Positions 307 to 43,379 of a stretch of 64,000 nucleotides of DNA are shown in pieces. Each line of letters opens with the position of its first letter. The first letter of the stretch is position 1. The notes under the pieces were generated by a model. That model saw only the letters and a program-made list of their open reading frames with translations. It made no database searches and was not told the DNA's origin. The DNA is from an uncultured Mediterraneibacter sp. Lineage in GTDB: Bacteria > Bacillota > Clostridia > Lachnospirales > Lachnospiraceae. The position numbers and the translations under genes were made by a program. The DNA is taken from NCBI GenBank assembly GCA_944381495.1, contig CALWLJ010000013.1, forward strand, positions 36,810-100,809. The letters are read 5' to 3'.

Positions 307-666
307 ATGGAGAGCCGTTTTACACAGCAGCTGAAAAAAGGCGTTCTGGAGATGGTCGTTCTCTGTATCATATCAGAAAAAGATACATACGGTTATGAGC
401 TCCTTCAGGAACTGGGAAAACGGGGAGAAGGTTTCTTTGATCTGAAGGAAGGTACCCTTTATCCCATCCTGTACCGCCTGGAAGATGACGGCCTGATCCA
501 ATCCTCCTGGAAGCAGGATCCGGAAAGAAACGGGGGAAGACGTCCTGCACCGAAGAAATACTACAGGATCACGGATGCGGGCAGCAGGGCGGCGGAGGAT
601 TACCGGGACATATGGAAGAAATTTGAGCAGTGTGTGGATCGCTTATGCGGGGAGGGAGAAGTGTGA
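307..666 (+). CDS. PadR family transcriptional regulator
   Basis: This 119-residue protein has the PadR winged-helix core: GVLEMVVLCIISEKDTYGYE (residues ~12-31), the EGTLYPILYRLEDDGLI recognition region, and the GRRPAPKKYYRIT wing. The C-terminal helix that mediates dimerisation is short, as in the PadR-s1 subgroup. An AGGAGG lies just upstream of the ATG. It is paired with the HAAS-domain membrane protein downstream, a very common PadR partner in Firmicutes, and both probably form one operon autorepressed from the dyad at 250-283. The stop codon TGA (664-666) lies inside repeat copy 1. The inducer is unknown. Confidence 0.92.
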   Translation: MESRFTQQLKKGVLEMVVLCIISEKDTYGYELLQELGKRGEGFFDLKEGTLYPILYRLEDDGLIQSSWKQDPERNGGRRPAPKKYYRITDAGSRAAEDYRDIWKKFEQCVDRLCGEGEV

Positions 667-727
667 AAGTAAACTTTCACATCTACCATTATTGACGCAG
701 CAAGTGCATCAGAAAGAGGAAATCATG
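661..727 (+). repeat. Gene-junction repeat, copy 1 (67 bases)
   Basis: The element begins with GTGTGA, whose TGA is the stop codon of padR, and ends on the ATG of the next gene. Inside are a stem GTGAAAG/CTTTCAC with a TAAA loop, a second stem GACGCA/TGCATC (one mismatch) with a GCAAG loop, and the ribosome site GAAAGAGGAAATC before the ATG. The same 67 bases, with a few substitutions, recur at 41842-41908, and in a 71-base version at 43309-43379. Confidence 0.9.
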
Positions 728-1432
728 ACAGAAGAACAGAAAAAGATTAAAAGATATGTAAACGCTCTGGAGCGCCGTCTGAAGCTCCCCTTAAAGTTAA
801 AGGTCAGGATCAATGAGGATATAGGCACAGAAATCCATCTCAGAATGGAGGCAGGAGAGAGTGTAGATGAAATCCTGGAGGAAATGGGAAGTCCCGAGGC
901 AGTGGCAGAGCGGTTTCATGAGGAGTATGCAGAGTATGTTGTGAAGAAAAGTCCGATTCGATTCCTGTTCCTTGGACTGGCAGCCTTTATTATCATAGCA
1001 GCGGTCCTATTTGGAATTGTATTTGCCCAGTCGCACCAGACTGAACCATCGATTTCTATTATCGGAGGTGCTGATGGTCCAACATCTATTTTCATTGCGG
1101 GTAAGACAGAAAATGAAACGAATCGGAACGTCTGGAACACTTACTGGATGTCTGTTGTAGGACTGTTTCTGGGCTGTATTGCAGCGTACTTGATGGCGTC
1201 TTATGGAAAGAGAGGAGACAGAAAGCAATATATGAAGTGCATCCTGCTGTCTGCGGCAGGACTGATTTTATCATTTATTCCTTTCTTTATACCGGACGGA
1301 CATGTGGTCCAGTGGTCTTTCGGCGTGGGCATGACAGGAATAACAGTAGCGCCGGGAGTGATCCTGAATCTGGTGGTGCTGGTAATGGCATGGATAAGGA
1401 TGAGGAAGAAGCGCGGGGATGATATCAGGTAA
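725..1432 (+). CDS. HAAS/DUF1700-type membrane protein with a GGADGPTS motif
   Basis: Starting at ATG 725 gives 235 residues. Residues 1-80 form the helical HAAS domain (kinked helices, EDIGTEIHLRMEAGESVDEI, then MGSPEAVAERF) that PadR-linked membrane proteins carry. Hydrophobic segments lie at about 83-105, 147-165, 175-195 and 200-225. Between the first two is SISIIGGADGPTSIFIAGK, a motif otherwise typical of the beta subunit of sodium-pumping decarboxylases. The reading frame stays open upstream through the repeat (to 575), but that part overlaps padR and encodes only the repeat, so ATG 725 with its GAGG site is preferred. The role is unknown; it is probably a membrane effector or sensor controlled by PadR. 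Confidence 0.82.
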   Translation: MTEEQKKIKRYVNALERRLKLPLKLKVRINEDIGTEIHLRMEAGESVDEILEEMGSPEAVAERFHEEYAEYVVKKSPIRFLFLGLAAFIIIAAVLFGIVFAQSHQTEPSISIIGGADGPTSIFIAGKTENETNRNVWNTYWMSVVGLFLGCIAAYLMASYGKRGDRKQYMKCILLSAAGLILSFIPFFIPDGHVVQWSFGVGMTGITVAPGVILNLVVLVMAWIRMRKKRGDDIR

Positions 1433-1497
1433 AAGCTGGCCGGGGAATACCCGATAATATAGTATGAAAAAAGTGGTGAAATTAATTCGAAAAAATC

Positions 1498-1526
1498 TTG
1501 ACAAATGGTGATCTTCACAGTATACT
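1498..1526 (+). promoter_or_regulatory. Promoter of tRNA-Trp
   Basis: TTGACA (1498-1503), a 17-base spacer, and TATACT (1521-1526) lie 34 bases upstream of the tRNA. This is an excellent sigma-A promoter and indicates that the tRNA is transcribed alone. Confidence 0.85.
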
Positions 1527-1560
1527 ATACAAGTGGCTTGCGAAAGACAGGCCACGGAAT

Positions 1561-1631
1561 AGGGGATTGGTCAAATGGTATGATAGGGGTCTCCAAAACC
1601 TTTGGTGGGAGTTCGATTCTCTCATCCCCTG
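1561..1631 (+). tRNA. tRNA-Trp (anticodon CCA)
   Basis: The cloverleaf folds fully. The acceptor stem is AGGGGAT/ATCCCCT, the D stem GTCA/TGAT with a GG-containing loop, the anticodon stem GGGGT/ACCTT with loop CTCCAAA (anticodon CCA), and the T stem GGGAG/CTCTC with loop TTCGATT. The discriminator is G and no CCA end is encoded. It is a single tRNA with its own promoter and terminator, about 53 kb from the trp operon whose T-box would read the uncharged form of a tRNA-Trp. Confidence 0.9.
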
Positions 1632-1639
1632 CTAGAAAG

Positions 1640-1664
1640 GCACCGTGTTTACGGTGCTTTTTCT
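1640..1664 (+). terminator. Terminator of tRNA-Trp
   Basis: GCACCG (1640-1645) pairs with CGGTGC (1652-1657) and is followed by a T-rich run, directly after the tRNA. Confidence 0.85.
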
Positions 1665-1800
1665 ATTTCGTGTCATATGATTCAAAATAGGGTATGGCTA
1701 TTTTGTTTGCGATGACTGCCTAGAGGTGATACGATATTCCAATCGAGAAGGTGTACGTCTTCGGATGTGTATTGCCGCCTAATGTGCCAACATCGGGCGG

Positions 1801-1943
1801 TTGACTTTTTCGATACATTTGCTATAATGTACTTAACAGGACAGCCGGAAGGTGAGTGCAGGTCACCCGACCCGGCGAAAGTAAATACTAAGCTAAGAAA
1901 TAGCCGTTCCTAAACTTTGACGAGAGCAGGACGGCTATTTCTT
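1801..1943 (+). ncRNA. Probable small structured RNA with its own promoter and terminator
   Basis: TTGACT (1801-1806), a 16-base spacer and TATAAT (1823-1828) form a strong promoter with no convincing reading frame after it. A strong terminator hairpin follows, GAAATAGCCGT (about 1897-1907) against ACGGCTATTTC (1931-1941), ending in a short T run. The expected transcript is roughly 110 bases and contains another hairpin, GGTGA/TCACC, near 1851-1866. The layout resembles the antisense RNA half of type I toxin-antitoxin loci in Firmicutes, but I find no toxin peptide, so it may be a remnant or an independent small RNA. The rest of 1665-1800 shows nothing I can name. Confidence 0.5.
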
Positions 1944-2005
1944 ATGCGTAAAATTCAGAATGGCTACTATCAGTAAGGCGGTACTTACAATTAGGCTCAA
2001 CTCTT

Positions 2006-2461
2006 CTAAGCTGCTTTCTTACGAATTATTTTCCTGATAAATAATATGACCAAAAAATAAATTGCACATGCTATGATCCCCGCACCACAAGACCATGATA
2101 CAAATACATACCAAAGATGCTTCACTCTTGCAATTTGGTATGTAGCGATCTCTCCACGCTCAAGAACAGCAAGCCCTAATACAGCAATTGGAACACATGC
2201 GCCCAGGATAAAAGCTATAGCTGCACCAAGAGCGGTCAGCGCCTTTTGATAAAACCGTACTTTTTTTAACGGATCTGTTTTTAACTCAGTATTTGCAGGC
2301 TGAACATCTATTTTCATTTTCATGGCATCCATCTTTTTTTGGCAGTCTTCGCATTCGCTTAAGTGCTTATCAATGTCCTGCCTTGTTTGTTCGGATAATA
2401 TATCGTCCTGATATAGCGGTAATAAATCTGAAACAATATAACATGGAAGTCCTTTATTCAT
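2006..2461 (-). CDS. Zinc-binding anti-sigma factor-like membrane protein
   Basis: This 151-residue protein has an N-terminal anti-sigma zinc domain with the HLSECEDC (HxxxCxxC) motif near residues 33-40, preceded by CYIVSDLLPLY, which is typical of zf-HC2 proteins. Two membrane helices follow (about 74-98 and 115-140) and a basic tail (RKIIRKKAA). Its start overlaps the end of the upstream ECF sigma gene by 8 bases, so the two are translationally coupled. The expected role is to hold that sigma factor at the membrane until a signal releases it. Confidence 0.8.
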   Translation of the reverse strand: MNKGLPCYIVSDLLPLYQDDILSEQTRQDIDKHLSECEDCQKKMDAMKMKIDVQPANTELKTDPLKKVRFYQKALTALGAAIAFILGACVPIAVLGLAVLERGEIATYQIARVKHLWYVFVSWSCGAGIIACAIYFLVILFIRKIIRKKAA

Positions 2462-2930
2462 TTTTCAAAATCTCCTCTACAATTTTTTGCTTTCCCCTAA
2501 AAAATGTGACTCTTGTCCAGTTTTCTGTTTTGCCGATGATTTCTCCGATTTCAGCGAAAGATAAGTTGCTGATCAATCTTAAATACATTACTTCACGTAC
2601 AGGCTCATTCAAAGCATGTATCAACTGTAATATCTCTTTTTGTTCCCACTGAACGTTTATTTCTTTTTTACCATTTGTTTCCGGAATATTGTCCTCCAGG
2701 GGTAAAGTGTCCGGATGTTTCCTTAAATATTTCAACCAGACATTTTTAGCAATTCCGCACAACCAGGTCAAAATAGAGCTGTTTCCTTTAAAGCGGTCAA
2801 TACATTGAACAGCTTGAAAAAAAGTCTCCTGGGTGAGTTCTTCGGCAAGATGTTCGTTAGTTGTTTTGCTCAATAAAAACAAATATACTTTTTTTGAATA
2901 AATCTCATATATTTCTTCAAACGATTGCAC
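2454..2930 (-). CDS. ECF-type RNA polymerase sigma factor
   Basis: This 158-residue protein has the two ECF regions. Sigma-2 runs over residues ~1-70 with the ELTQETFFQAVQCIDRFKGN core and LTWLCGIAKNVWLKYLRKH. Sigma-4 runs over ~100-150 with VREVMYLRLISNLSFAEIGE and TRVTFFRGKQKIVE. The length is normal for the family. It is the first gene of a two-gene unit with the anti-sigma protein and probably recognises its own promoter somewhere in 2931-3060, which I could not delimit. Confidence 0.88.
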   Translation of the reverse strand: MQSFEEIYEIYSKKVYLFLLSKTTNEHLAEELTQETFFQAVQCIDRFKGNSSILTWLCGIAKNVWLKYLRKHPDTLPLEDNIPETNGKKEINVQWEQKEILQLIHALNEPVREVMYLRLISNLSFAEIGEIIGKTENWTRVTFFRGKQKIVEEILKNE

Positions 2931-3194
2931 TTTTAGCCCCCCTTCTGTTTGTTAGTACCGAATTCTGCTGTTTTGTTACAATCATATTTATAAAAGTAAA
3001 AAATCATTTTACAAGTCGGGAATATTCCTGAAAAAACATAATAAGTTCAAATGTTTAAAAATTTTTCTTCATTATCAATACAGTATAACAAAATAGAACA
3101 TAAATGGAGGATAAAAGAATGAAAAAAGTGTCTAAAAAAACAAATTGAATCATTATAGGGAGTGAAGATGTGAGGAGATATTAAAGGGAGAGAA
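2931..3194. other. AT-rich intergenic region with a tiny reading frame
   Basis: This stretch holds the upstream region of the ECF sigma gene (minus strand). On the plus strand an AGGAGG-like site near 3106 precedes an ATG at 3120 that encodes only MKKVSKKTN and a stop at 3147-3149. The peptide is too short to assign and may be a truncated gene start. Nothing else is evident. Confidence 0.3.
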
Positions 3195-3215
3195 GGGGAG
3201 CGGCCCGCCGCTCCC
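3195..3215 (-). terminator. Probable terminator of the ABC exporter operon
   Basis: GGGAGCGG (3196-3203) and CCGCTCCC (3208-3215) form a strong GC stem just past the end of the minus-strand permease gene. The following minus-strand bases are pyrimidine-rich but not a pure T run. Confidence 0.5.
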
Positions 3216-3242
3216 TTTCCTAATCAGAAATTTGAACATGCA

Positions 3243-4490
3243 TCATCTCACCGTATGTCGGACATAAGAATATACCGTCAGTCCTGCAAAAAGCGGAATC
3301 TCAATAATATACGCAATGACTGCAGCGTATGGAGTCCATACAGCCATATTCCCTATATTAAAAAATTTGAAATCCTGAACCGCATAGAGGATACTTGTCT
3401 GCAGCCCCACCCCTCCGGCCGGCAGTATGCTGCACAGCCAGTTCGATATACTTTCCGGCATGATAACGGAAATGATAAGAGGCATGAGGCAGAATAACAG
3501 AGCGGTCGCCAGTGCCGCCACTGTGCTCCTGAAATTGGCGGACAGGAAGAGGGTAAAGCTTACCACGGCAAGAACACATAACAGACCGGTCCAGGCCAGG
3601 AACCACTGCAGCTGCCCCAGATCCATATCAGCCAAAGTGAGGATGGAATAGATCATCTGGATCGACGTCTTCGTACACTCCCAGCCGAACAGTGTGTTGG
3701 AGATCAGGATATACAGTACCGTGCAGATCATAAATGCAATCCCACTGATGCACAGGGCAGAGAGTATTTTTACTGCTGCGAGATAACATTTACCCCGTCT
3801 GGTACAGCGCAGGATATCGTCTGCGCCGGACTGGTATTCTGCGGAGAAAATCGGCGCGGCGATCACAGCACAGAACAATACAATCAGAAATGCAAGCATG
3901 GTCTGATAATCCAGGGCATTGGAGTTGAAACCAGGATACACCTCAAAGGGTTTTTCCACATCCGCGTACATATTCATTGCCGTATTCCGGGCTGACAGGT
4001 TGTTACCCTGTTCTCTTACCATCTGTGCGGATAGCTGATCCTCACATGCCTGGTAATAATTGTCTATCTTTTCTGGATCGATCTCCATGAGGGTTGGTTC
4101 GATGCCGGTGACGGGATCAGCAAACAAAGTTTTTACACCGTGGATCACAGGGACATAAGGCAGGATCTCTGTTTCATAGACGCCCGCCGGCAGATCGTAA
4201 GACTGTTCTATGCCGTAATGGTTCAGGCAGGCCTGATAGATCTCAACTGCTTCCCGTACTTTCTCAGGAGTGACAGCTCCGGCTGCCTCAGACTGCAGTT
4301 CTTTTTCGTATGCGATAGAGTCAAGGCCGGTCAGCTCTACCAGGTTTCCTGAATCATCTGTATAGCTGCTGTAGAAGAAAGTAGTTGGTATCCAGGCTAA
4401 CAGGAATGTAAGCAGCAGAGCCAGTATCAGTAAGATCCATGTGGATCTTGTTTTCAGCACACGTTTTATTTCCAGTATGAAAATACGCAT
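3243..4490 (-). CDS. ABC transporter permease (ABC-2 type)
   Basis: Starting at ATG 4490 gives 415 residues. A first membrane helix (~15-35, STWILLILALLLTFLLAWIP) is followed by a long extracytoplasmic region (~40-215) and then five or six further helices. This is the usual layout of ABC-2 permeases that export peptides or antibiotics. An ORF starting at 4634 is longer but would overlap the ATPase gene, and AGGAGG sits 5-10 bases before ATG 4490. The start follows the ATPase stop by one base, so the two are coupled. The substrate is unknown; linkage to an ECF sigma factor suggests an envelope-stress or antimicrobial-peptide response. Confidence 0.85.
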   Translation of the reverse strand: MRIFILEIKRVLKTRSTWILLILALLLTFLLAWIPTTFFYSSYTDDSGNLVELTGLDSIAYEKELQSEAAGAVTPEKVREAVEIYQACLNHYGIEQSYDLPAGVYETEILPYVPVIHGVKTLFADPVTGIEPTLMEIDPEKIDNYYQACEDQLSAQMVREQGNNLSARNTAMNMYADVEKPFEVYPGFNSNALDYQTMLAFLIVLFCAVIAAPIFSAEYQSGADDILRCTRRGKCYLAAVKILSALCISGIAFMICTVLYILISNTLFGWECTKTSIQMIYSILTLADMDLGQLQWFLAWTGLLCVLAVVSFTLFLSANFRSTVAALATALLFCLMPLIISVIMPESISNWLCSILPAGGVGLQTSILYAVQDFKFFNIGNMAVWTPYAAVIAYIIEIPLFAGLTVYSYVRHTVR

Positions 4491-4491
4491 T

Positions 4492-5382
4492 TTAACACCT
4501 CCTGTCTTCGATTGAGCTGTCCTGCGGGAAAAGCCACAGATACAGATCCTCCAGGCGCGGATCGGCAGGAGCGGAGCCGGATACCAGCGGCCGTTCTGCC
4601 AGATAGCGGACCGCAACAATGCCGTTGCTTCCATTTCTCAGATTCACGATCTGAAGCCGATGCTCATACTTCTGCAAGGCTTCAGCCGGGATGACACAGC
4701 TCCATACTTTTCCCTTTACAGACTGTACCAGCTCTTCTGTAGTTCCGGTCTCCAGCAGCTTTCCGTCCTTCATGACAGCGTTGCAGGTGGCGATATACTC
4801 CACATCCGGGACAATATGTGTAGAGATCAGAACGATCCGGTCGTGGGCAAATTCTGAGATCAGGTTCCGGAAGCGGACTCGTTCTCCCGGATCCAGCCCG
4901 CTGGTCGGTTCATCCAGGATCAGTACTTCCGGATCGTTTAGCAGAGCCTGGGCAATGCCGACTCTTCGTTTCATTCCGCCGGAGAGTTTTGAAATTTTTT
5001 TGTTTCTTACGTCCGATAAAGATAGCATTTCCAGCAATTCAGAGATCTTCCGCCGGGTTTTACGGGGCGGGATCGCCTTCAGCGCGGCCATATATTCCAG
5101 ATAGCTTTTTACAGTAAATTCGGGATAAAATCCAAATTCCTGGGGCAGATATCCGAATATATCACGGTAACGCTCCCCAAGGGTTCTGATGGGGACTCCG
5201 TCATATACGATACGGCCGGAGCAGGGCTTCATGATCCCGGCGATGATCCGCATCAGCGTGGTTTTCCCGGCGCCGTTGGCCCCCAGCAGTCCCCATACGC
5301 CCGGGGTGATATGCAGGGTAACATCAGATACCGCTTTTTTGTCTTTGAATTGTTTGGAAACATGGTCGATCAGTAATTCCAT
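4492..5382 (-). CDS. ABC transporter ATP-binding protein
   Basis: This 296-residue ATPase shows Walker A GANGAGKTT (~34-42), the Q-loop around LPQEFGFYPEF, the signature LSGGMKRRVGIAQAL (~134), Walker B VLILDEPTSGLD (~155) and the switch histidine in VLISTHI. The extra C-terminal ~80 residues are common in exporters of the ABC-2 type. It lies between two membrane proteins and presumably drives one or both. Confidence 0.92.
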   Translation of the reverse strand: MELLIDHVSKQFKDKKAVSDVTLHITPGVWGLLGANGAGKTTLMRIIAGIMKPCSGRIVYDGVPIRTLGERYRDIFGYLPQEFGFYPEFTVKSYLEYMAALKAIPPRKTRRKISELLEMLSLSDVRNKKISKLSGGMKRRVGIAQALLNDPEVLILDEPTSGLDPGERVRFRNLISEFAHDRIVLISTHIVPDVEYIATCNAVMKDGKLLETGTTEELVQSVKGKVWSCVIPAEALQKYEHRLQIVNLRNGSNGIVAVRYLAERPLVSGSAPADPRLEDLYLWLFPQDSSIEDRRC

Positions 5383-5400
5383 TTGATCACATCCTTTCTA

Positions 5401-6180
5401 TTATGTCAGCTGCATTTCTGCGAAAGCTGAGCGTTTGATGATCCGGCTGATCTGAAAAATGTTGCAGACGACTAATCCCAGGCAGACAATTCCCCAGGCC
5501 AGGGAGAACGTCTGATGATAAAATGCGGGATAGATCCGGTCTGTCATAAATAACATCAGAAGTAAAGCAACGCACATTCCTGTGCTGCCCGGCAGGAAAA
5601 ACCGTGCCGGGATATGTTCCAAGAGGAACAGAAGCCCTCCGCAGGCCAGCAGAAACGGAAATATGATATACAGGATCACACCGCTGGCATTTATCGAAGT
5701 CTTTAGTATGGTAGTATATAAAATGCCGCCCAGTATGAGTAAGTCGCCAACACCAATGATAAGAAGCTTTGCCAGGAGCAGTCTGGCGGAGGAAAACCAG
5801 GTGGCTGCCTCTACTTCATTCATTTTGAAACGGAGGGGGCGGTGGATAAACGGGAGTGCGGTCATCAGTACCAGGATAGATGAGAAGCAGAGCAGTTCTG
5901 CAACATAGCGCTGGGTTCCCCAGTAATATTTTCCGAAGGAAACGATGAGTACACTGTTGATCAGAGCAAGAAGGATTCCCTGTATCGCCCAGATCTTCCA
6001 TCCCATGTGTCGGATCTGCAGTATAAGGAAGCTTCGGAAAGGGATCCTGTTTATCGAAGACTTCCTGTTCAGCTCGATGTTTACTGAGAATACAGTTTCC
6101 TGTAAATGTTCCTCCGAAATAGGAATGTCAGTATGAGAAAATGTGGTTTTAAGCTGTCTGTTCAGATTACTATCCATCAT
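5401..6180 (-). CDS. Membrane protein coupled to an ECF sigma factor
   Basis: This 259-residue protein has a soluble N-terminus of about 60 residues followed by about six hydrophobic helices. Its start overlaps the stop of the ECF sigma gene by 4 bases, and the ABC ATPase follows after 18 bases. It has no zinc anti-sigma motif. By position it could be the membrane partner of the sigma factor, a second permease subunit for the ATPase, or both. I do not recognise a named family. Confidence 0.7.
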   Translation of the reverse strand: MMDSNLNRQLKTTFSHTDIPISEEHLQETVFSVNIELNRKSSINRIPFRSFLILQIRHMGWKIWAIQGILLALINSVLIVSFGKYYWGTQRYVAELLCFSSILVLMTALPFIHRPLRFKMNEVEAATWFSSARLLLAKLLIIGVGDLLILGGILYTTILKTSINASGVILYIIFPFLLACGGLLFLLEHIPARFFLPGSTGMCVALLLMLFMTDRIYPAFYHQTFSLAWGIVCLGLVVCNIFQISRIIKRSAFAEMQLT

Positions 6181-6710
6181 ACAGTACCATCCTCCTTTAG
6201 TTTACTTTTCAGCTGCTTCAATGCAGAACGAAGCCGGGATTGAGCTGTGCGGAGAGGAATATCCAGGATTTCTGCTGTTTCCCGGATCGTAAGATCCTGA
6301 CTGAAGCGCAGGATCACCACTTCCCGCAGCTCTTCCGGCAGAAGTTCAATATACTGCCGCAATGCAAGATCAGACTCTGTTTTGTCAAAACCTGTTTCGT
6401 GATAGATGCTCTCATGGGTGAGATCTTCGATGGATATGTCAGAAAACGATTTTTTCCGTCTCATGTCTATACAGGTATTTGCAGCAATCTGATATAAAAA
6501 TGCTTTGAATTTCCCTTTATGGATATACCGGTCAAAATATCTGACCGCTTTCAGGAAGGTTTCCTGTACGGCATCTTCTGCCATGGATCTGTTCGGAGCG
6601 TGCCAGAGACAGTACCGCAGGATTTCGGGATACAGCAATCGGATTAGTTCCTCTGCGGCAGAACGGTCTCCGGACTCCATTCTTTTAATTAATTTATCTT
6701 CACGCGTCAA
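6177..6710 (-). CDS. ECF-type RNA polymerase sigma factor
   Basis: This 177-residue protein has ECF sigma-2 (AEDAVQETFLKAVRYFDRY and FKAFLYQIAANTCIDMRRKK, residues ~44-90) and sigma-4 (LPEELREVVILRFSQDLTIR and IPLRTAQSRLRSALKQLK, ~120-170). It is the first gene of a four-gene minus-strand operon with the membrane protein and the ABC exporter. It probably switches that operon on, and likely itself as well. Confidence 0.9.
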   Translation of the reverse strand: MTREDKLIKRMESGDRSAAEELIRLLYPEILRYCLWHAPNRSMAEDAVQETFLKAVRYFDRYIHKGKFKAFLYQIAANTCIDMRRKKSFSDISIEDLTHESIYHETGFDKTESDLALRQYIELLPEELREVVILRFSQDLTIRETAEILDIPLRTAQSRLRSALKQLKSKLKEDGTV

Positions 6711-37011: not shown

Positions 37012-37050
37012 AGGATATCCGTATATGACTATCGGATATCCTTCTTTTTA
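37012..37050 (+). terminator. Terminator after the DUF362 gene
   Basis: AGGATATCCG pairs with CGGATATCCT and is followed by TCTTTTT. Confidence 0.85.
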
Positions 37051-37083
37051 TTACTGCTTTAATAGCATTACTGCTCTGGCAGC

Positions 37084-37112
37084 TTGACGTGACAGTATAT
37101 TAAAGCTACAAT
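37084..37112 (+). promoter_or_regulatory. Promoter of the DUF969-DUF979-pcp operon
   Basis: TTGACG (37084-37089), a 17-base spacer and TACAAT (37107-37112) sit 32 bases before the DUF969 gene. Confidence 0.75.
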
Positions 37113-37143
37113 TTATGAAAATGTAATTTAGGAGGAATGAAAC

Positions 37144-37833
37144 ATGGAGATGACAGAATTGTTGAAACTGTTGGGAATTGTGGTTGTGATTGCCGGATTC
37201 GCGCTGAAGCTTGACTCAATACTGATTGTATTTGCAGCTGCGGTTGTGACAGCAATCGTTGGAGGACTCGGGGTGGACGGTTTCCTGGAACAGCTGGGAA
37301 CGAATTTTACTTCCAACCGGAGTATGGCTATTTTTATCCTGATCCTGCTTGTCACTGGAACACTGGAGAGAAATGGACTACGTGAGGCGGCTGCGGCACT
37401 GATCGGTAAGATCAAGGGAGTTACAAGTGGGAAGCTGATCTGTGTGTATGGCATCATGAGAGCGTTTTTCGGAGCATTCAATGTGAACTTTGGCGGAGTG
37501 GCCGGATTTATCAGACCGGTAGTCCTTCCAATGGCTGAAGGTGCGTTGGAAGCTCAGAAAAAGGAGATCAAGGAAGATTATATGGAAGAGGTAAAGGGAA
37601 TGGCTTCAGCCATGGAAAATGTGGCATGGTTTTTCTTCCAGGTACTGTTTGTAGGAGGAGCAGGCGGTCTGCTCGTACAGTCTACAATGAAGGCCTTGGG
37701 CTATGATGTGGAGCTGATCGATCTTGCGGCGGCGTCTATCCCTATGGCGCTGACTGCGCTTGTCGTGGGATGTGTATATTTCCTGCTGAGGGATAAGAAG
37801 CTGAGAAAGAAATACTATGGAGATGAGAAGTAA
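37144..37833 (+). CDS. DUF969 family membrane protein
   Basis: This 229-residue integral membrane protein has about six helices and a basic end. It is the first gene of a three-gene unit with DUF979 and pyroglutamyl peptidase, an order conserved in many Firmicutes. The two membrane proteins probably form one transporter, perhaps for pyroglutamyl peptides or 5-oxoproline, since the peptidase follows (inference). AGGAGG precedes the ATG. Confidence 0.85.
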   Translation: MEMTELLKLLGIVVVIAGFALKLDSILIVFAAAVVTAIVGGLGVDGFLEQLGTNFTSNRSMAIFILILLVTGTLERNGLREAAAALIGKIKGVTSGKLICVYGIMRAFFGAFNVNFGGVAGFIRPVVLPMAEGALEAQKKEIKEDYMEEVKGMASAMENVAWFFFQVLFVGGAGGLLVQSTMKALGYDVELIDLAAASIPMALTALVVGCVYFLLRDKKLRKKYYGDEK

Positions 37834-37847
37834 GGAGGAGAAAAATC

Positions 37848-38792
37848 ATGGCATTTTTTATGGATCCGGGGGTTACGCTGAGTTCTAAGCTCCTGGAAGT
37901 TGTATATATGCTGATCGGAGCAGTTACTATATATGCAGGGATCAAAAACCTGCTGGATAAGAAGAACCCAAGCAGATACGGAACTGCTGTTTTCTGGTGC
38001 GCGTTCGGTATTGCGTGCGCGTTTGGAAACTGGCTTCCTGCGCAAGTGACAGGTACACTGGTAGTTATTATGATCCTGCCGGCAATATTCAAGAGAGTAA
38101 AGCCGGGATTTTCACTTGCGCCGGCGAAAGAGTACTGTGAAGCTCAGTTTAAGAAGATTGGGATGAAAATATTTATTCCAGCCCTGTCAATGGGAATCAT
38201 GGCACTGATCTTTGCGCTCTTTACGGACATCAGTTCCCTTGTGGGAATCGGAGTGGGAATTATTATATCAATGATCATACTTATGGCATATTCAAAGGAT
38301 AATAAACCGAAAGTATTTCTGGACGACGCAGAACGAGTGCTGTCTATGATGGGACCGCTGTGTCTGCTGCCTCAGCTGCTTGCCTGCCTGGGAGGAATTT
38401 TCACTGCTGCAGGAGTCGGAGATGTGATTTCACAGATTGTTTCTTACTTTGTGCCGGAAGGAAATGTAAATGTCGGAATTATTGTATATGCTCTTGGCAT
38501 GGTGGCCTTCACAGCTATTATGGGAAACGCATATGCGGCAATTACAGTACTGACAGTGGGTATCGGAGCGCCTTTTGTGCTGGCATATGGAGCAGATCCG
38601 GTGGTGATCGGGGCGGTGGCTCTGACTACGGGATTCTGCGGAACGCTTTTGACTCCTATGGCGGCGAACTTCAATATTGTCCCGGTCGCTCTGCTTGATA
38701 TGAAGAAGAAATTCGGTGTAATCCGAAATCAGGCAGTGATTGCAGTGATCATGATCGTGGTACAGATTAGTTATATGATCGTTATGAAATAG
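37848..38792 (+). CDS. DUF979 family membrane protein
   Basis: This 314-residue protein has eight or nine helices and begins 14 bases after the DUF969 gene, with AAGGAGG between. The pairing with DUF969 and Pcp suggests a two-part permease. Notable segments are TAIMGNAYAAITVLTVGIGA and GFCGTLLTPMAANFNIVPVA, which contain small residues and a Pro as in ion-coupled carriers. Confidence 0.85.
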   Translation: MAFFMDPGVTLSSKLLEVVYMLIGAVTIYAGIKNLLDKKNPSRYGTAVFWCAFGIACAFGNWLPAQVTGTLVVIMILPAIFKRVKPGFSLAPAKEYCEAQFKKIGMKIFIPALSMGIMALIFALFTDISSLVGIGVGIIISMIILMAYSKDNKPKVFLDDAERVLSMMGPLCLLPQLLACLGGIFTAAGVGDVISQIVSYFVPEGNVNVGIIVYALGMVAFTAIMGNAYAAITVLTVGIGAPFVLAYGADPVVIGAVALTTGFCGTLLTPMAANFNIVPVALLDMKKKFGVIRNQAVIAVIMIVVQISYMIVMK

Positions 38793-38865
38793 TTGAAACG
38801 ATGCTGTTATGTCTGCCCGGTTCGGGTATCTACAGAAATAAATGATGAAAAGGGAGGAATGAAAT

Positions 38866-39522
38866 ATGAAGATTCTTGTAACTGGATTTGATCCATTTGG
38901 AGGAGAAAAAGTGAATCCCGCTTTTGAGGCGGTTAAAATGCTTCCGGACAAGATCGCAGGCGCGGAGATCATAAAAATGGAGATCCCGACTGTATTTTCT
39001 AAGAGCTGGAGAGCAGTAGAAGACGGAATCCGGAAGTATGATCCGGATGTGGTTGTAAATGTGGGACAGGCCGGAGGAAGAGCCCATGTGACGATTGAGC
39101 AGGTGGGAATTAACCTGGCGGACGCCAGGATACCAGACAATGACGGAGAACAGCCTCTTAACCAGCCTCTTCAGCCAGACGGGGATACGGCATATTTTGC
39201 CACTATACCAGTAAGGGCTATGGTACAGAATGTACGCAGCCACGGGCTGCCCTGCAGCATATCTTATACGGCCGGGACGTATGTCTGCAACTGTGTTATG
39301 TATAATGTACTCTATCTTGCGGCAAAGAAGTATCATGGACTGAAAGCCGGTTTTATCCATGTACCTTATGCCATGGAGCAGCTGATTGGAAAGGATGCTT
39401 CTACTCCGGGAATGTCACTGCGTGATATTGCAGCCAGTCTGGAATATGCGCTGGAAACTATTGCCTCAGGCGGTGAGGAAGCAATGGGGCCGGTTCACGG
39501 TGGACAGGGCACGATCTGCTGA
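38866..39522 (+). CDS. pcp: Pyroglutamyl-peptidase I
   Basis: This 218-residue enzyme removes N-terminal pyroglutamate from peptides in the cytoplasm. The C15 family motifs are ILVTGFDPFGGEKVNPAFEA at the N-terminus, Glu in the GRAHVTIEQVGIN region (~78), catalytic Cys in YTAGTYVCNCVMYN (~144) and His in GFIHVPY (~166). The length is typical. It ends the DUF969/DUF979 operon and lies 73 bases after DUF979. Confidence 0.95.
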   Translation: MKILVTGFDPFGGEKVNPAFEAVKMLPDKIAGAEIIKMEIPTVFSKSWRAVEDGIRKYDPDVVVNVGQAGGRAHVTIEQVGINLADARIPDNDGEQPLNQPLQPDGDTAYFATIPVRAMVQNVRSHGLPCSISYTAGTYVCNCVMYNVLYLAAKKYHGLKAGFIHVPYAMEQLIGKDASTPGMSLRDIAASLEYALETIASGGEEAMGPVHGGQGTIC

Positions 39523-39539
39523 CAGAGGCCGGGCTGCGG

Positions 39540-39568
39540 TTGACAGGAGCGGGATTTTTTATTAAACT
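39540..39568 (+). promoter_or_regulatory. Promoter of the DUF3842 gene
   Basis: TTGACA (39540-39545), a 17-base spacer and TAAACT (39563-39568). Confidence 0.65.
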
Positions 39569-39676
39569 GTTTATCGGATGTTTAACAGAACAGCGCAGAC
39601 GAAACTTTTCGGCGATTCCGTGCCGATATTAATGAATACGGACATATAGATCAACAACAGAAAAGAGGGTGGATGA

Positions 39677-40084
39677 TTGAAAGTTCTTATTATAGACGGC
39701 CAGGGCGGCGGTCTTGGAAGACAGCTGGTCACAGCTGTCAAGGAGGCCCACCCGGATATTGAGGTTCTTGCAGTGGGGACCAACAGCGCGGCTACGAATG
39801 CCATGCTCCGGGCCGGAGCGGACCAGGCAGCTACAGGAGAGAATTCCGTTGCTGTAGCTTCCAGACAGGCGGATGTGATCATGGGACCCATCGGTATTGT
39901 GATCGCAGACTCCATGCTGGGAGAGATCACACCTGCAATGGCAGTGGCTGTCGGTCAGAGTCAGGCAAAGAGGATCCTGATCCCGGTAAACCTCTGTGAT
40001 AATATCGTGGTGGGAGTCGGAGAGACTTCCATGGTTAAAAATGTACAGAATGCAGTGAATGCACTGGAAAAGCTCCTTGGATAA
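39677..40084 (+). CDS. DUF3842 family protein
   Basis: This 135-residue protein starts at TTG 39677 behind GAGGGTGG. It has a nucleotide-binding-like N-terminus VLIIDGQGGGLGRQLV and a long conserved NSAATNAMLRAGADQAATGE segment, typical of DUF3842 proteins from Clostridia. The function is unknown. A terminator follows, separating it from larE. Confidence 0.8.
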   Translation: MKVLIIDGQGGGLGRQLVTAVKEAHPDIEVLAVGTNSAATNAMLRAGADQAATGENSVAVASRQADVIMGPIGIVIADSMLGEITPAMAVAVGQSQAKRILIPVNLCDNIVVGVGETSMVKNVQNAVNALEKLLG

Positions 40085-40182
40085 CAGGAAGATTGCCCGG
40101 CAGGAAGCCGGGGCAGGAGGCAGAAGCCTATGGGAAAGAACATGGAGCGGAGAAATTGTACAGTATTAAAAATGGATACCAG

Positions 40183-40223
40183 GAAGGTATCTGCTCTCAG
40201 AAGAGGGCAGATACCTTCTTTTG
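40183..40223 (+). terminator. Terminator or attenuator before larE
   Basis: GAAGGTATCTGC pairs with GCAGATACCTTC and is followed by TTTTG. It lies about 30 bases before larE, so it may end the DUF3842 transcript or attenuate expression of larE. Confidence 0.8.
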
Positions 40224-40254
40224 TTTGAAAGAAAAGATCATAAGGAGAAAAAAT

Positions 40255-41010
40255 ATGTTGCTGGAAGAGTTTTTTGATACGGTGCCGAAAGCGGCGGTTG
40301 CATTTTCCGGAGGAGTGGATTCGGCTTTCCTGCTCTGGGCTGCGAAAAGGTATGGATGCAGGATCCATGCATATTATGTGAAGACAGCATTTCAGCCGGA
40401 GTTTGAGCTGAAGGATGCGCGCAGGATTACAGATGAGCTTGGTATTCCGATGACAGTGATACAGGTCGATATCCTGTCCGTGCCGGAGGCGGCCGCCAAC
40501 GGTCCACGGCGGTGCTATTATTGTAAGCGTGCTCTTTTTTCCACTTTGTGGGAGAGAGCGCGGAAAGATGGATATGAGATCCTGCTGGACGGGACCAATG
40601 CATCGGATGACGCAGGAGACCGCCCCGGGATGCAGGCCCTGAGTGAGCTGGAAGTGCGGTCCCCCCTCAGAGAATGCGGCATGACAAAGGATGAAGTAAG
40701 ACGCAGGTCAAGGGAAGCAGGACTCTTTACCTGGGACAAGCCGGCCTATGCCTGCCTGGCTACTCGAATCCCGACAGGCACAGAGATAACGGCAGAGGAT
40801 CTGAGACGGACGGAACAGGCGGAGGAGATTCTGGACCGGATAGGATTCCGGGATTTCCGTGTGCGTCTTTTCGGCAGCGGCGCCCGTCTGCAGGTGACAG
40901 AGGAGCAGCTTGCACTGGCGGTAGAGAAAAGGACGGAGATCGTCCAGGAACTGAGCCCCCTCTTCCCGGCCGTATTGCTGGATCTGCAGGCCCGCAGGGC
41001 GTCAGACTGA
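40255..41010 (+). CDS. larE: LarE, sulfur transferase for the nickel pincer cofactor
   Basis: Starting at ATG 40255 gives 251 residues. The N-terminal PP-loop ATPase motif is AFSGGVDSAFLL. LarE adenylates the carboxylate of P2CMN and inserts sulfur. C167 in YACLATRIP corresponds to the sacrificial Cys of Lactobacillus LarE. In addition C87 and C90 form CYYC, so three cysteines are available, as in the cluster-containing LarE type that can turn over repeatedly. AAGGAG lies before the ATG. It is followed by larB and larC. Confidence 0.92.
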   Translation: MLLEEFFDTVPKAAVAFSGGVDSAFLLWAAKRYGCRIHAYYVKTAFQPEFELKDARRITDELGIPMTVIQVDILSVPEAAANGPRRCYYCKRALFSTLWERARKDGYEILLDGTNASDDAGDRPGMQALSELEVRSPLRECGMTKDEVRRRSREAGLFTWDKPAYACLATRIPTGTEITAEDLRRTEQAEEILDRIGFRDFRVRLFGSGARLQVTEEQLALAVEKRTEIVQELSPLFPAVLLDLQARRASD

Positions 41011-41073
41011 CAGTCGGATCTGGAACAGATACAGGGAATTTTATGGAAATACAGAGAAAAGAGGAGACAACAT

Positions 41074-41847
41074 ATGGATCATAAACAGGATATCCTGAAG
41101 CTTCTCCGCAGCGTGGCGGATGGGAAAACAACTCCGGAGGATGCGCTGCTGGAGCTTAAGGAGGAACCCTTTGAGGATCTGGGATATGCCAAGATCGATT
41201 ATCATCGCAGTGTGCGCCAGGGAGCTTCGGAAGTGATCTACGGGGCGGGAAAAACGCCGGAGCAGATCCGGGGGATCGTCACTGCCATGGGAGAGCGGGG
41301 ATGCAGAAATATTCTCGTGACCCGGATCAGCCAGGAAGCGGCAAATATGCTGCAGGAGGCAGTACCCGTGGACTATCACCCCCTTCCCAGGCTGGCGATT
41401 GCTTTTCCGGAGGAGATTGAAAAAAGAGGAAATATTGTAGTGGCTACCGGGGGAACCAGCGATCTGCCTGTAGCCGAAGAGGCGGCACTGACGGCGGAGG
41501 TGCTGGGAAACCGTGTGACCAGACTGTATGATGTGGGAGTGGCAGGACTGCACAGGCTGCTCTCTAATCTGGATGAACTGATGAGCGCCCGTTGTGTGGT
41601 TGCAGTTGCAGGAATGGAAGGAGCCCTTGCCTCTGTGGTAGGCGGTCTGGTGGACTGCCCGGTGGTGGCTGTCCCGACCAGTGTAGGATACGGAGCAAGC
41701 TTTGGCGGTTTGTCGGCACTGCTGTCCATGCTGAACTCCTGTGCGTCAGGATGCAGCGTGGTAAATATTGACAACGGATTTGGCGCAGGCTATCTGGCGA
41801 GCCGGATCAACCAGATGGAAGGAATCAGAGAGGACGAGAAAGTGTGA
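41074..41847 (+). CDS. larB: LarB, nicotinic acid adenine dinucleotide carboxylase/hydrolase
   Basis: This 257-residue protein catalyses the first step of the nickel-pincer cofactor: carboxylation of the pyridinium ring of NaAD and release of AMP. The C-terminal half is PurE-like (ATGGTSDLPVAEEAALTAEV and GMEGALASVVGGLVDCPVVA). Its TGA (41845-41847) is inside repeat copy 2, whose other end is the larC ATG, so the repeat makes up the whole larB-larC junction. Confidence 0.93.
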   Translation: MDHKQDILKLLRSVADGKTTPEDALLELKEEPFEDLGYAKIDYHRSVRQGASEVIYGAGKTPEQIRGIVTAMGERGCRNILVTRISQEAANMLQEAVPVDYHPLPRLAIAFPEEIEKRGNIVVATGGTSDLPVAEEAALTAEVLGNRVTRLYDVGVAGLHRLLSNLDELMSARCVVAVAGMEGALASVVGGLVDCPVVAVPTSVGYGASFGGLSALLSMLNSCASGCSVVNIDNGFGAGYLASRINQMEGIREDEKV

Positions 41848-41908
41848 AAGTAAACTTTCACATCTACTATTATTGACGCAGCAAGTGCGTCGGAAAGAGG
41901 AAATCATG
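41842..41908 (+). repeat. Gene-junction repeat, copy 2 (67 bases)
   Basis: Same length and layout as copy 1: GTGTGA carries the larB stop, stem GTGAAAG/CTTTCAC, perfect stem GACGCA/TGCGTC with GCAAG loop, ribosome site GAAAGAGG, and the ATG of larC as the last three bases. Confidence 0.92.
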
Positions 41909-43189
41909 AGAACACTTTATATCGAATGTAATATGGGAGCGGCGGGGGATATGCTCATGTCCGCTCTGTATGAGCTGTTGGGAGAGAAAGAAAAGGAATC
42001 CTTCCTGGCAGTTATGAACCACAGCGGACTGCCGGGGACAGAGATCCAGGCCTGCCCGGGAAGCACCTGCGGCATTGCAGGAACGCATATGAAAGTGACT
42101 GTCTACGGAGAGGAAGAGAAAGAACCGGCCGGAGAAGATCAGGGACACAGCCATGATCACGAGCACAGTCATGAGCATGGACATAGCCATGATCACGACC
42201 ACGGTCATGAACACGAGCATTCCCACGATCATGTCCACAGTCATCATCATGCCTCTCCCGGCCATATCCGGGATCTGATCCGGGGAATGGACCTGCCGGA
42301 GGAAGTGAAAAAAAGCGGGGAGGCTGTCTATGACGCCATTGCCGCTGCAGAGGCCAAGGCTCACGGATGTCCGGTGGGGGACGTCCATTTTCATGAAGTA
42401 GGGGCACTGGACGCAGTGGCTGACGTGACTGGGGTGTGCTATGCTATATATCTGCTCCATCCGGAGCGGATCATCGTCTCCCCGATCCATGTGGGAAGCG
42501 GTACAGTCCGCTGCGCCCACGGGATCATGCCGGTGCCTGCGCCTGCCACGGCGAATCTGCTGGAAGGAGTGCCCATCTACGGCGGCAGTGTACAGGGAGA
42601 ATTGTGTACGCCAACAGGAGCAGCGCTGCTGAAGCATTTCGCAGATTCCTTTGGTCCCATGCCCATGATGCAGGTGGAAAAGAGCGGCGTTGGGATCGGT
42701 ACAAAGAGCTTTGAGCAGGCCAACTGTGTGCGGGTGTTTCTGGGGGAGACCCGGGATGAGGAGGAGCACCGGATCACAGAGCTGGTGTGCAATATTGATG
42801 ACATGAGTCCGGAGGCGCTGGCCTTCGCATGCAGCCGTCTGCTGGAACTGGGAGCTCTGGACGTGTATACAGTGGCTGGAACTATGAAGAAAGGCCGTTC
42901 CGGCCATGTACTGACCGTGCTGTGCAGACCGGAAGAGGAGGAGCGGATGGCACGCTGTATCCTGGAGCAGACCACGACCAATGGCCTGAGAGCCCGCAGA
43001 TGCGGAAAATATTTCCTTGAGACTGGCTCAGAGCAGGTGCAGACCCGGTGGGGCAATGTGCGGGTGAAGACGGCGGAAGGATACGGAATCCGTCATGTAA
43101 AGCCGGAGTTCGAGGATGTGGCGGATCTGGCACGGGAGAACGGCGTACCTTACAGAGAGGTCTTCGAGGATGCGGTGAAAAAGGCGTAA
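41906..43189 (+). CDS. larC: LarC, nickel-inserting cyclometallase
   Basis: Starting at ATG 41906 gives 427 residues. LarC inserts nickel into the dithio-pyridinium precursor to give the lactate-racemase-type cofactor. The N-terminus MRTLYIECNMGAAGDMLMSA is typical. Residues 81-120 contain 20 histidines, a nickel-holding segment. HEVGALDAVADVTG and CNIDDMSPEALAFA are family segments. Unlike Lactobacillus plantarum, where larC1 and larC2 are joined by ribosomal frameshifting, here one continuous frame covers both parts. No larA was found in the window. Confidence 0.93.
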   Translation: MRTLYIECNMGAAGDMLMSALYELLGEKEKESFLAVMNHSGLPGTEIQACPGSTCGIAGTHMKVTVYGEEEKEPAGEDQGHSHDHEHSHEHGHSHDHDHGHEHEHSHDHVHSHHHASPGHIRDLIRGMDLPEEVKKSGEAVYDAIAAAEAKAHGCPVGDVHFHEVGALDAVADVTGVCYAIYLLHPERIIVSPIHVGSGTVRCAHGIMPVPAPATANLLEGVPIYGGSVQGELCTPTGAALLKHFADSFGPMPMMQVEKSGVGIGTKSFEQANCVRVFLGETRDEEEHRITELVCNIDDMSPEALAFACSRLLELGALDVYTVAGTMKKGRSGHVLTVLCRPEEEERMARCILEQTTTNGLRARRCGKYFLETGSEQVQTRWGNVRVKTAEGYGIRHVKPEFEDVADLARENGVPYREVFEDAVKKA

Positions 43190-43308
43190 AAACAATTGAG
43201 AAATCTAACATGGATTTGACATACTGCTAACAAAGATTCCATATTTTTGTGATACATTACTTCTGTCAGGATTAAAAATTCTGAAAATTTATGATTGAGA
43301 GTGTGATA

Positions 43309-43379
43309 GTGCGAAAGTCAACTTTCACAACTACCATTATTTATTGACGCAGCAAGTGCGTCGGAAAGAGGAAATCATG
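43309..43379 (+). repeat. Gene-junction repeat, copy 3 (71 bases)
   Basis: This copy has a 4-base insertion before TTGACGC and one mismatch in the first stem. The second stem GACGCA/TGCGTC and GAAAGAGGAAATC-ATG are intact. It is not on a stop codon of an intact gene, and the ATG at its end opens a short frame. Confidence 0.9.

Follow-up and report, generated by a model that had tools for sequence, protein, structure and literature searches.

The repeat in the window

Why does one small sequence stand in front of three open reading frames within a single stretch of 64,000 nucleotides (the window) from an uncultured Mediterraneibacter species? An earlier note on this DNA described three copies of a 67-nt repeat (661–727, 41842–41908 and 43309–43379) and considered it a mobile or copied module, reaching from a stop codon to the next start codon, that supplies a translation restart between operon genes. 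All three copies were found at these positions. The common length applies to copies 1 and 2, which measure 67 nt when the terminal TC and ATG are counted, but not to copy 3 (71 nt). Moreover, comparison with empty sites gives copies 1 and 2 an insert of 62 nt (661–722 and 41842–41903) and places that of copy 3 at 43309–43374, and the terminal 5 nt (TCATG) are therefore host sequence. The unit opens with a G and an 8-bp hairpin (UAAA loop); after a linker come a second hairpin and a Shine-Dalgarno sequence (SD) ending in AAA. It is small, repeated and non-coding, with no gene of its own. The features of the three loci are as follows.

307 to 666, plus strand: padR-type gene (ORF and orthologues; presumably PadR, a name taken from the earlier note), with its stop TGA within copy 1
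649 to 660, plus strand: GGGGAGGGAGAA at the 3' end of padR, the SD-like stretch that the HAAS gene had before the insertion, now its left flank
661 to 722, plus strand: first element copy (62 nt, G..GAGGAAA), downstream of padR and ahead of the HAAS-like gene (ends from empty-site comparison)
662 to 681, plus strand: hairpin 1 of copy 1, 8 bp with UAAA loop
694 to 710, plus strand: hairpin 2 of copy 1, 6 pairs, one of them broken
711 to 722, plus strand: SD-carrying tail of copy 1, AGAAAGAGGAAA (sequence and alignment)
725 to 1432, plus strand: HAAS-like gene (ORF list; name from the earlier note), with its ATG after copy 1
41074 to 41847, plus strand: larB (orthologues; name from the earlier note and from its place before larC), with its TGA supplied by copy 2
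41828 to 41841, plus strand: GAGAGGACGAGAAA at the end of larB, the SD-like stretch that larC had before the insertion
41842 to 41903, plus strand: second element copy (62 nt), at the larB-larC junction
41843 to 41862, plus strand: hairpin 1 of copy 2
41875 to 41891, plus strand: hairpin 2 of copy 2
41892 to 41903, plus strand: SD-carrying tail of copy 2, GGAAAGAGGAAA
41906 to 43189, plus strand: larC (NCBIfam LarC match), with its start codon directly after copy 2
43309 to 43374, plus strand: third element copy, 66 nt owing to a linker longer by a 4-nt insertion, preceding a 50-codon ORF
43377 to 43529, plus strand: small ORF of 50 aa starting after copy 3, a putative gene; the sister species has the same start sequence

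The HAAS-like product has no NCBIfam match at 1e-10. In copies 1 and 2 the TGA of GTGTGA does end PadR and LarB, and according to the ORF list the ATG at the right end is the start of the next gene. The frame that stays open upstream of the true start and ends in KEEIM is also present in that list, and start codons of common gut bacteria may be misannotated because of the element. The stop codon is not a general feature of the copies: an upstream ORF of at least 80 codons ends within the element in only 15 of 76 contexts, and the stop is incidental, a by-product of the element landing in tight junctions.

Empty sites and insertion junctions

The earlier note named two findings that would speak against its reading: a lack of further copies in the genome, and the same sequence at the same junctions in all distant relatives, as expected of ordinary conserved leaders. 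Neither was borne out. The larB-larC junction lacks the element in 28 of the 30 genus members in which it is visible (own genome included), as does the padR-HAAS junction in 6 of 8 close orthologues. At the original SD stretch of the HAAS gene the empty orthologues read GGGGAGGAAGGAAAATG and GGGGAGGGAGAGCCATG, and at that of larC the empty congeners read, for example, CAGGGAGGAATAAGAGATG (locus L116). Ten sites filled in the sister species were checked in the own genome; six are cleanly empty, one holds a short remnant, two are filled in both and one was not found. Vertically inherited leaders, or a chance likeness of SD regions, would agree with the fact that five of the six own copies (copy 3 among them, at L007/L008) share their place with copies of the sister species. 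The six sister-only insertions and the near-same sequence at different genes in other genera argue against this reading, which the empty orthologous sites refute and which we regard as extremely improbable.

The junctions at L011, L012, L015 and L017 fit a 62-nt insertion (G..GAGGAAA) without target duplication, and at the four well-aligned junctions the insertion point lies directly 3' of the A's that follow the SD of the host gene. An ordinary MITE of a DDE-type insertion sequence, of which purifying selection spared only the copies lying between SD and ATG, would likewise be small, repeated, non-coding and without a gene of its own. However, terminal inverted repeats are absent (2–5 of 14 end positions match), the four clean junctions carry no target duplication, and few copies were seen at neutral intergenic positions (L054, L316 and the lone hairpin L289), so that a MITE of this kind is very unlikely. 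The same scarcity bears on selection in general: it may be that insertion occurs anywhere and that the survivors are those between SD and ATG, but selection alone would predict neutral intergenic copies.

Position relative to Shine-Dalgarno sequences and start codons

Positional preference was measured on 66 copies collected with a pattern that contains neither an SD nor an ATG. An ATG follows 16–29 nt after the pattern end in 62 of these 66 copies, and 54 of them lead into an ORF of at least 50 codons, compared with 12.4% of random positions; this count supersedes an earlier one with a wider start-codon window (56/66 against 21% at random) because some copies contain an internal ATG. In two high-copy genomes 35 of 40 copies lead into such an ORF, whereas starts counted on the opposite strand, reading leftwards from the left end of the element, number 6/66. 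Only short ORFs follow the copy in 5/66 cases (3/40 in the two high-copy genomes). An SD core was found within 18 nt to the left of the element in 52 of 68 flanks, against 11/68 and 12/68 in two control windows. In the two high-copy genomes it is present in 33 of 40 left flanks (3 and 7 in the control windows), about nine of these flanks being the ends of older copies. Left flanks without an SD core by our own definition number 16/68, and 3/68 end on A instead of G. The downstream genes are mutually unrelated; the targets include gyrA, thiI, def, folBK, folP, tgt, mtaB, uppS, clpP, tsaB, dnaE and cobT.

The proposal of a mobile module that restarts translation is backed by the dispersal of the copies and by the empty junctions of relatives, as far as comparison of sequences can speak to it. 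The element appears to bring a new translation start signal, but it is not specific to operon or stop-to-start joints; it probably targets the SD region of genes, regardless of what lies upstream.

Copy number and spread among genomes

More copies were looked for in the own genome by blastn with copy 2, which matches six places (E 4e-29 to 3e-14). The same query finds 15 places in the sister species, two of them half copies. Some other Lachnospiraceae have at least 44–50 matches per genome. In another genus, a diverged 80-nt family occupies about 41 places in one species and about 17 in a second (counted by hand, with halves included and hairpin-1 self-palindromes dropped). Within the genus a match occurs in only 3 of 58 members, own genome included, and in other genera nearly the same sequence stands in front of different genes. 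Recent spread is indicated in one genome (G447) by its near-identical copies. The insert measures 62 nt in this lineage and 63 or about 80 nt in others, and several sequence families (about 60, 62–63 and 80 nt), differing in the second hairpin, appear to share a common plan across Lachnospiraceae.

Phage or plasmid cargo was rejected, since copy 2 has no blastn match in 50,697 phage records or in plasmid records, and pattern scans of IMG/VR for the element gave no match. A group II intron, suggested by the GUGUG start, was dropped because other families start with GTTTG, against GTGTG in the window copies, and the unit is only 62–80 nt long. A scan of the window against Rfam 15 at the gathering threshold returned only a tRNA, and one family A copy and one family B copy gave chance-level matches only; no described family in the searched libraries matches the element.

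Hairpins and the question of a regulatory leader

The two hairpins described in the earlier note differ from each other in sequence, and their pairing is supported by the alignment. Folds of the window copies as single sequences are only modestly better than those of shuffles (z -2.1, -1.7 and -1.4), and the case for the hairpins is therefore carried by the alignment, in which 98.4% of cells are paired and 5 of 14 pairs show double changes (0 of 500 shuffles reached as high on these measures). On another covariation measure, the number of further pair types, the alignment (9) does not exceed the shuffles (9.8). Most of the double changes are switches of a whole lineage, common to 12–15 related copies.

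Covarying hairpins adjoining an SD, in sense orientation and at the start codon, would suit a functional RNA leader, that is, protein- or RNA-bound translational control spread or kept by selection before the genes of a regulon. Against it stand the unrelated downstream genes, the junctions without the element in the genus (larC) and at the sister-species sites, its rarity among the genus members, the recent spread in G447 and the lack of a fitting Rfam family. A riboswitch or regulon leader was rejected on account of the unrelated genes and the empty orthologous sites, and regulatory leaders as a whole appear very unlikely.

Proposed mechanism

It is highly probable, on the strength of the genome comparisons, that the repeat is a mobile element, very small and non-autonomous, which integrates at the SD region of genes. 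This reading takes up what the aligned sequences display: dispersal, insertion polymorphism, the junctions, the position relative to SD and ATG, the covarying hairpins and the polarity of arrays. Integration would take place in one orientation, behind the A's downstream of an SD-like purine stretch, mostly 2 nt before the start codon and with no target-site duplication. The 3' end of the element being itself an SD ending in AAA, the old SD would be moved 62–80 nt upstream and replaced before the start codon by that of the element. As a result the target gene should remain translatable, which would account for insertions before essential genes. Coupling to translation of the upstream gene would be loosened, and two hairpins would be added to the leader. 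Because the 3' end resembles the target, new copies could land behind the SD of older ones, giving rise to head-to-tail arrays with the younger copy adjoining the ATG. In tandem pairs, searched for in the head-to-tail arrangement only, the ATG-proximal (downstream) copy is nearer the consensus in 8 of 11.

If this is right, the element spares its host because it brings along a replacement for the signal that it disrupts, and it could spread before many genes, essential ones included, without, it seems, switching them off. It would also offer a natural experiment on translation coupling, in which many genes per genome have a standard leader inserted between SD and ATG, with the corresponding empty alleles present in sister species. 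Additionally, it would point to an enzyme with an SD-directed, orientation-specific insertion activity, which would be of practical interest too.

Candidate mobilising enzymes

We infer that the mobilising enzyme would recognise the SD-AAA motif on both element and target and would use the hairpins as handles; the integrating form would be single-stranded or circular. One version of the SD-targeting element names this enzyme: a REP-like element moved in trans, on single strands, by an HUH (Y1) tyrosine transposase of the IS200/IS605 or RAYT type. It would explain the lack of target duplication, the fixed orientation, the foldable single strand and the motif common to the left target and the right end. 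Insertion without target duplication and in sense orientation to the downstream ORF is a trait of IS200/IS605-derived elements and is found here. Additionally, a Y1_Tnp match occurs in 14 of the 15 element-bearing genomes tested, and GTAG precedes the minus-strand hairpin 1 in families A and A' (in 43 of 57 copies of family A), which may correspond to the tag of GTAG-tagged REPs. On the other hand, families B and C lack GTAG, the hairpins are unlike in sequence, and one MAG of unstated completeness (G061) has 50 matches to the element and no Y1_Tnp match. The Y1 genes appear, judged by eye, to be several different IS200-type TnpA, and none was seen flanked by the element. Around 41 Y1_Tnp loci of 15 draft genomes (up to 1.5 kb per side, some ending at contig ends) no flanking copy was found, with the exception of one element 1.1 kb from a Y1 fragment in an apparently unrelated IS200 remnant. 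No autonomous tnpA-bearing copy with the same ends was seen around the Y1 genes of these drafts. An HUH enzyme is thus a tentative candidate, on balance rather doubtful.

An autonomous copy with a gene between its hairpins was not found among the partial matches in two draft genomes (G447 and G429). Three left-only halves examined there are two old diverged copies and a lone hairpin, and no left-only and right-only halves share a contig (40 of 48 G447 candidates scored); no mobilising enzyme was found. It is conceivable, at slightly less than even chances, that the element represents a distinct class of mobile DNA parasitising translation initiation sites, in which the SD itself, carried by the element at its 3' end and recognised in the target, would be the recombination site of a non-HUH recombinase; each insertion would re-create a working SD and could rewire operon coupling, also before essential genes.

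Comparison with known systems

Among described systems, REPs, small dispersed repeats and phage start-associated sequences come closest, and the open-access literature, outside which most subscription papers lie, gave no description of an SD-targeting repeat. The cyanobacterial SDRs of Elhai et al. 2008 are reportedly very small elements that insert precisely with no evident transposase; they differ from the present element in sequence, hosts and target and are not known to be tied to translation start sites.

Start-associated sequences (SAS/ESAS) of cluster K mycobacteriophages are, in the passages seen, likewise dispersed, oriented (nearly always one way) and placed near start codons (typically 3–7 bp before them), with an SD core and sometimes the stop of the upstream gene; about half have an upstream inverted-repeat part (PMC3203893). 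Unlike the element, they consist of 13 bp plus imperfect 17-bp repeats whose RNA hairpins the authors doubt, reside in phages and are conserved by gene family, and those passages make no claim of empty sites or mobility (PMC3203893). Their sequence is also another one, the element consensus differing from the 13-bp GGGATAGGAGCCC-type SAS.

REPs of the RAYT type, the GTAG- and CGTC-tagged palindromes, are described in the parts consulted as short, high-copy, hairpin-forming and non-coding, the GTAG type being thought to be mobilised in trans (PMC3733652). The element resembles them in being short, high-copy, hairpin-forming and non-coding, and perhaps in the GTAG-like minus-strand tag of families A/A'. 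However, REPs are single 20–40-bp palindromes, often in head-to-head pairs and mainly in Proteobacteria, and the text of that paper does not mention Firmicutes, Clostridi-, start codon or Shine (PMC3733652). The element, in contrast, is a 62–80-nt unit whose two hairpins differ; its polarity is fixed, one end bears an SD, and its arrays run head to tail. According to its abstract, a study of Beggiatoaceae reports TAACTGA heptamers a few nucleotides from the start codons of unrelated genes, with a suggested role in translation and possible horizontal spread; these differ in being direct heptamer repeats where, according to a section heading, canonical RBSs are rare, and that abstract describes no insertion event (PMC4679880).

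A promoter-like sequence overlapping copy 2 matches at 9 of 12 positions, and the surrounding 1.8-kb region holds three such matches where 1.5 are expected. At locus L035 a copy is split by an extra stretch of about 170 bp, which has inverted ends like those of a MITE and no space for a gene.

An element family between Shine-Dalgarno sequence and start codon

The comparisons described here argue for a real family of small mobile elements that use an unusual target and bring their own replacement signal; as far as searches went, the family had no earlier name. That it is mobile is inferred from comparative evidence, which we judge strong. In the genome holding the window the insert is 62 nt long and consists of a G, hairpin 1, a linker, hairpin 2 and a Shine-Dalgarno sequence (SD) ending in AAA. 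The window contains the following features:

661 (start), + strand, element copy 1
41842 (start), + strand, element copy 2
43309 (start), + strand, element copy 3
43377-43529, after copy 3, ORF of 50 codons, uncertain as a gene

The length of 67 nt given in the earlier note is right for copies 1 and 2 when the trailing TC and the ATG, both host sequence, are counted; it is not shared by copy 3, which reaches 71 nt through a 4-nt linker insertion. In copies 1 and 2 the TGA within GTGTGA is indeed the stop codon of the upstream genes, which we take from that note to be padR (307-666) and larB (41074-41847), and the ATG at the right end is the start of a presumably HAAS-like gene (725) and of larC (41906), the identity of LarC coming from NCBIfam. 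Copy 3 lies 120 nt downstream of larC and gives no stop to the upstream gene; the 50-codon ORF behind it begins MRRERRKIKHIK, with an identical start in the sister species. At 662-724 and 41843-41905 one element frame is open end to end and in frame with the downstream gene (..KEEIM), so that a preceding gene read in this frame would be fused to the following one, which bears on start-codon annotation.

The stop-to-start joint did not hold as a general feature. Among 76 contexts, orthologous sites in sister genomes included, upstream ORFs of 80 or more codons terminate within the element in 15, at most 60 nt before it in 24 and 60-150 nt before it in 18, and no upstream ORF end is found within 150 nt in 19. 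The stop noted earlier is therefore a consequence of insertion into tight junctions.

Position relative to the translation signals was analyzed with a pattern of 20 bases taken from the linker and hairpin 2; the pattern holds neither SD nor ATG and gave 69 matches on 67 stretches of a one-genome-per-species collection; L041, L053 and L073 were judged by context to be chance matches. An ATG opening an ORF of 50 or more codons lies 12-32 nt past the pattern end in 54 of 66 matches, compared with 12.4% when positions are drawn at random from the same loci, and 49 of these 54 ATGs lie at 17 or 18 nt, which places them 2 nt past the end of the 62- and 63-nt versions. The other 12 comprise three that run off the locus end, five with an ATG and a short ORF, three with a tandem copy behind them and L054, which has no ATG; L059 and L077 have a tandem copy downstream. 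Reading in reverse, outward from the left end, gave 6/66. In 40 copies picked from the match listing, 20 from each of the two highest-copy genomes, 35 precede an ORF, three a short ORF, one a tandem copy and one neither. Of 68 copies (ten flanks resembling older copies being left out), 52 have an SD core (GGAG, GAGG or AGGA) within 18 nt to the left of the element, vs 11 and 12 in two windows further upstream. The 40-copy set gave 33 vs 3 and 7, at least nine of the SD-positive flanks being by eye the right ends of older copies (24/31 without them). Hairpin 1 is immediately preceded by G in 65 of 68 copies and by A in 3; the next base to the left is A in 63. From these SD-core and ATG/ORF counts, the usual layout has the gene's old SD left of the element and the start codon right of it.

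Empty sites and insertion junctions

Presence of the sequence at the same junctions in all distant relatives would, according to the earlier note, indicate ordinary conserved leaders; instead, the element is absent from larB-larC in 28 of 30 displayed genus loci (six further larB orthologues without a locus excluded), only the own genome and its sister species G029 being filled. Empty loci carry an SD close upstream of larC, e.g., GGGAGGAATAAGAGATG. Likewise, the padR-HAAS junction is empty in six close orthologues (59-68% protein identity; more distant PadR paralogues left out), e.g., GGGGAGGAAGGAAAATG, and filled in the own genome and G029; in L148, an empty locus, the stop overlaps the start (CCATGACAG).

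Precise junctions were obtained by searching joined flanks of ten G029 sites in the own genome, and of 12 sites of a relative, G447, in its congener G429 (site L213, without a match, was left out). Six of the ten G029 sites are cleanly empty (L010, L011, L012, L013, L015, L017), L018 retains a short remnant, L014 and L019 are filled in both genomes and L016 was not found. Among the 12 G447 sites, both genomes carry the element at three (L204, L206, L227), two gave one flank only (L207, L219) and seven are spanned without an intact element (L209, L211, L215, L217, L223, L229, L231); L217 and L231 align well, the upstream flanks of the others are diverged, and L209 keeps an old right end in G429. 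The flank of L219 also holds a second dispersed repeat of G429, ~35-60 bp in >20 places (e.g., C2:101807, C14:31556, C11:113338; query 1907-1969) and unrelated to the SD element.

The thiI site (L015) reads GATGAAGGAGAAAATATG when empty and GATGAAGGAGAAA + insert (G..GAGGAAA) + ATATG when filled; L017 reads GGAGAYAA + insert + ATATG, gyrA (L011) GTGAA + insert + GAATG and cobT (L012) GGGGA + insert + AAATG. Since the A's kept at the left vary (3, 2, 2 and 1 in L015, L017, L011 and L012) and the insert is always 62 nt, a fixed target duplication appears to be absent at these four sites. The host target motif is an SD, 0-3 nt and A's, and a motif of this kind also forms the element's right end. 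Separately, the linker of one copy (L035, 1540-1760) is split by ~170 bp of MITE-like sequence carrying the inverted ends TTAGAGCGTGTTTGAAAATTGC.

NCBIfam assigned the downstream proteins to LarC, dihydropteroate synthase, ThiI, peptide deformylase, FolB-FolK, Tgt, MtaB, HisZ, undecaprenyl diphosphate synthase, DnaE (partial), ClpP, TsaB and CobT; a gyrase A truncated at the end of its locus (499 residues) matched GyrA best, below the curated cut-off. Among the 20 proteins scanned, three had no NCBIfam match (HAAS-like, L013, L018) and three had general matches only (L004, L039, L096). Genes of such kinds are generally regarded as essential. In gyrA the element separates the ancestral SD from the ATG, which suggests that the SD it carries works.

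Distribution and sequence families

Further copies elsewhere in the genome, a check proposed earlier, were found by blastn with copy 2: six places in the own genome and 15, including two half copies, in G029, the only other genome matched among 61 (own, 36 congeners and 24 from other families of the order). A covariance model under stricter filters matched 3 of 58 genus members, namely these two and G005, which has a single diverged copy (L297). The other pattern matches come from genomes named as Lachnospiraceae genera, including Fusicatenibacter and Scybalocola (both checked), or to loosely classified Eubacterium, Eubacteriales and Eubacteriaceae. Whole-genome searches of 12 pattern-matched genomes gave 50, 36, 9, 44, 12, 9, 2, 17, 10, 5, 45 and 15 matches, the high counts being approximate as at most 40 candidates were scored, and an order-wide scan of 392 genomes found a match in eight, with copy numbers as lower bounds (13 candidates scored per genome). 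The element appears to be chromosomal, since none was found in phage, plasmid and viral-contig collections.

Besides the window type (family A), diverged versions keep the same plan: A', with an altered linker, in G414 and G367; B, of 80 nt with a longer second hairpin, in G429 and G447; and C, of ~60 nt, as one copy in G319. Their left end is G and a hairpin of type TKTRRAAG-UAAA-CTTYYAMA, and their right end an SD then A's directly before the ATG. Family B occupies ~41 places in G447 and ~17 in G429 (E 1e-6 or better, halves included; 27-28-nt matches, which are hairpin 1 read backwards, left out), the best being 98-100% identical to the query; four further genomes from this genus, including two that are <70% complete, gave none.

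In 11 head-to-tail pairs the downstream, ATG-side copy is nearer the family consensus in eight (two of them, L042 and L094, explained by a truncated upstream copy) and the upstream copy in two, by about 0.01, with one tie; the pairs L222 and L295 look like one site in sister genomes. This polarity is consistent with new copies inserting behind an older copy's SD. Purifying selection acting on the SD at the right may play a part, although such selection alone would not keep the hairpins fresh.

Hairpin structure

Across 57 distinct copies of family A, standard pairs fill 98.4% of pair cells and both sides have changed in 5 of 14 pairs; 0 of 500 shuffles match either the paired share or the double changes, and slid structures drop the paired share to 25-42%. 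Most double changes are switches common to 15 and 12 related copies, and further pair types show no excess (9 vs 9.8 in shuffles). RNAalifold predicted almost the same pair of helices. When each sequence is folded on its own, copies 1 and 3 and L209 leave the SD tail unpaired; in copy 2 it is partly paired in the minimum-energy fold and free in the centroid. Folding was modestly better than in shuffles for the window copies (z -1.4 to -2.1) and clearly better for a family B copy (z -4.95), and Rfam gave no match. A lone hairpin 1 with an AAAG flank (L289; G429 C5:122853-122888) lacks hairpin 2 and SD, does not precede a start codon and may represent a solo end or a relic.

Candidate mobilizer and related repeats

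The absent target duplication, the fixed orientation and the hairpins make a single-strand mechanism plausible. Genes with the HUH tyrosine transposase profile Y1_Tnp, a candidate mobilizer, were present in 14 of the 15 element-bearing genomes examined, the exception being G061, a MAG of unstated completeness among the highest-copy genomes; in the 15 genomes none was seen flanked by the element, and the G447/G429 match listing holds no gene-bearing version. The SDRs of cyanobacteria count among the nearest described things. A search of open-access literature, to which subscription papers are mostly external, found no account of an SD-targeting element. Start-Associated Sequences of cluster K phages (PMC3203893), tagged REPs (PMC3733652) and TAACTGA repeats (PMC4679880) also come nearest, and the words Shine-Dalgarno, ribosome binding and start codon are absent from a review of prokaryotic MITEs (PMC10969869). 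Beside an IS200 remnant in a Scybalocola genome (L104, ~1850-2250), repeated units of the form AACCGTAT..TTTTG..GTACGGAG were observed.
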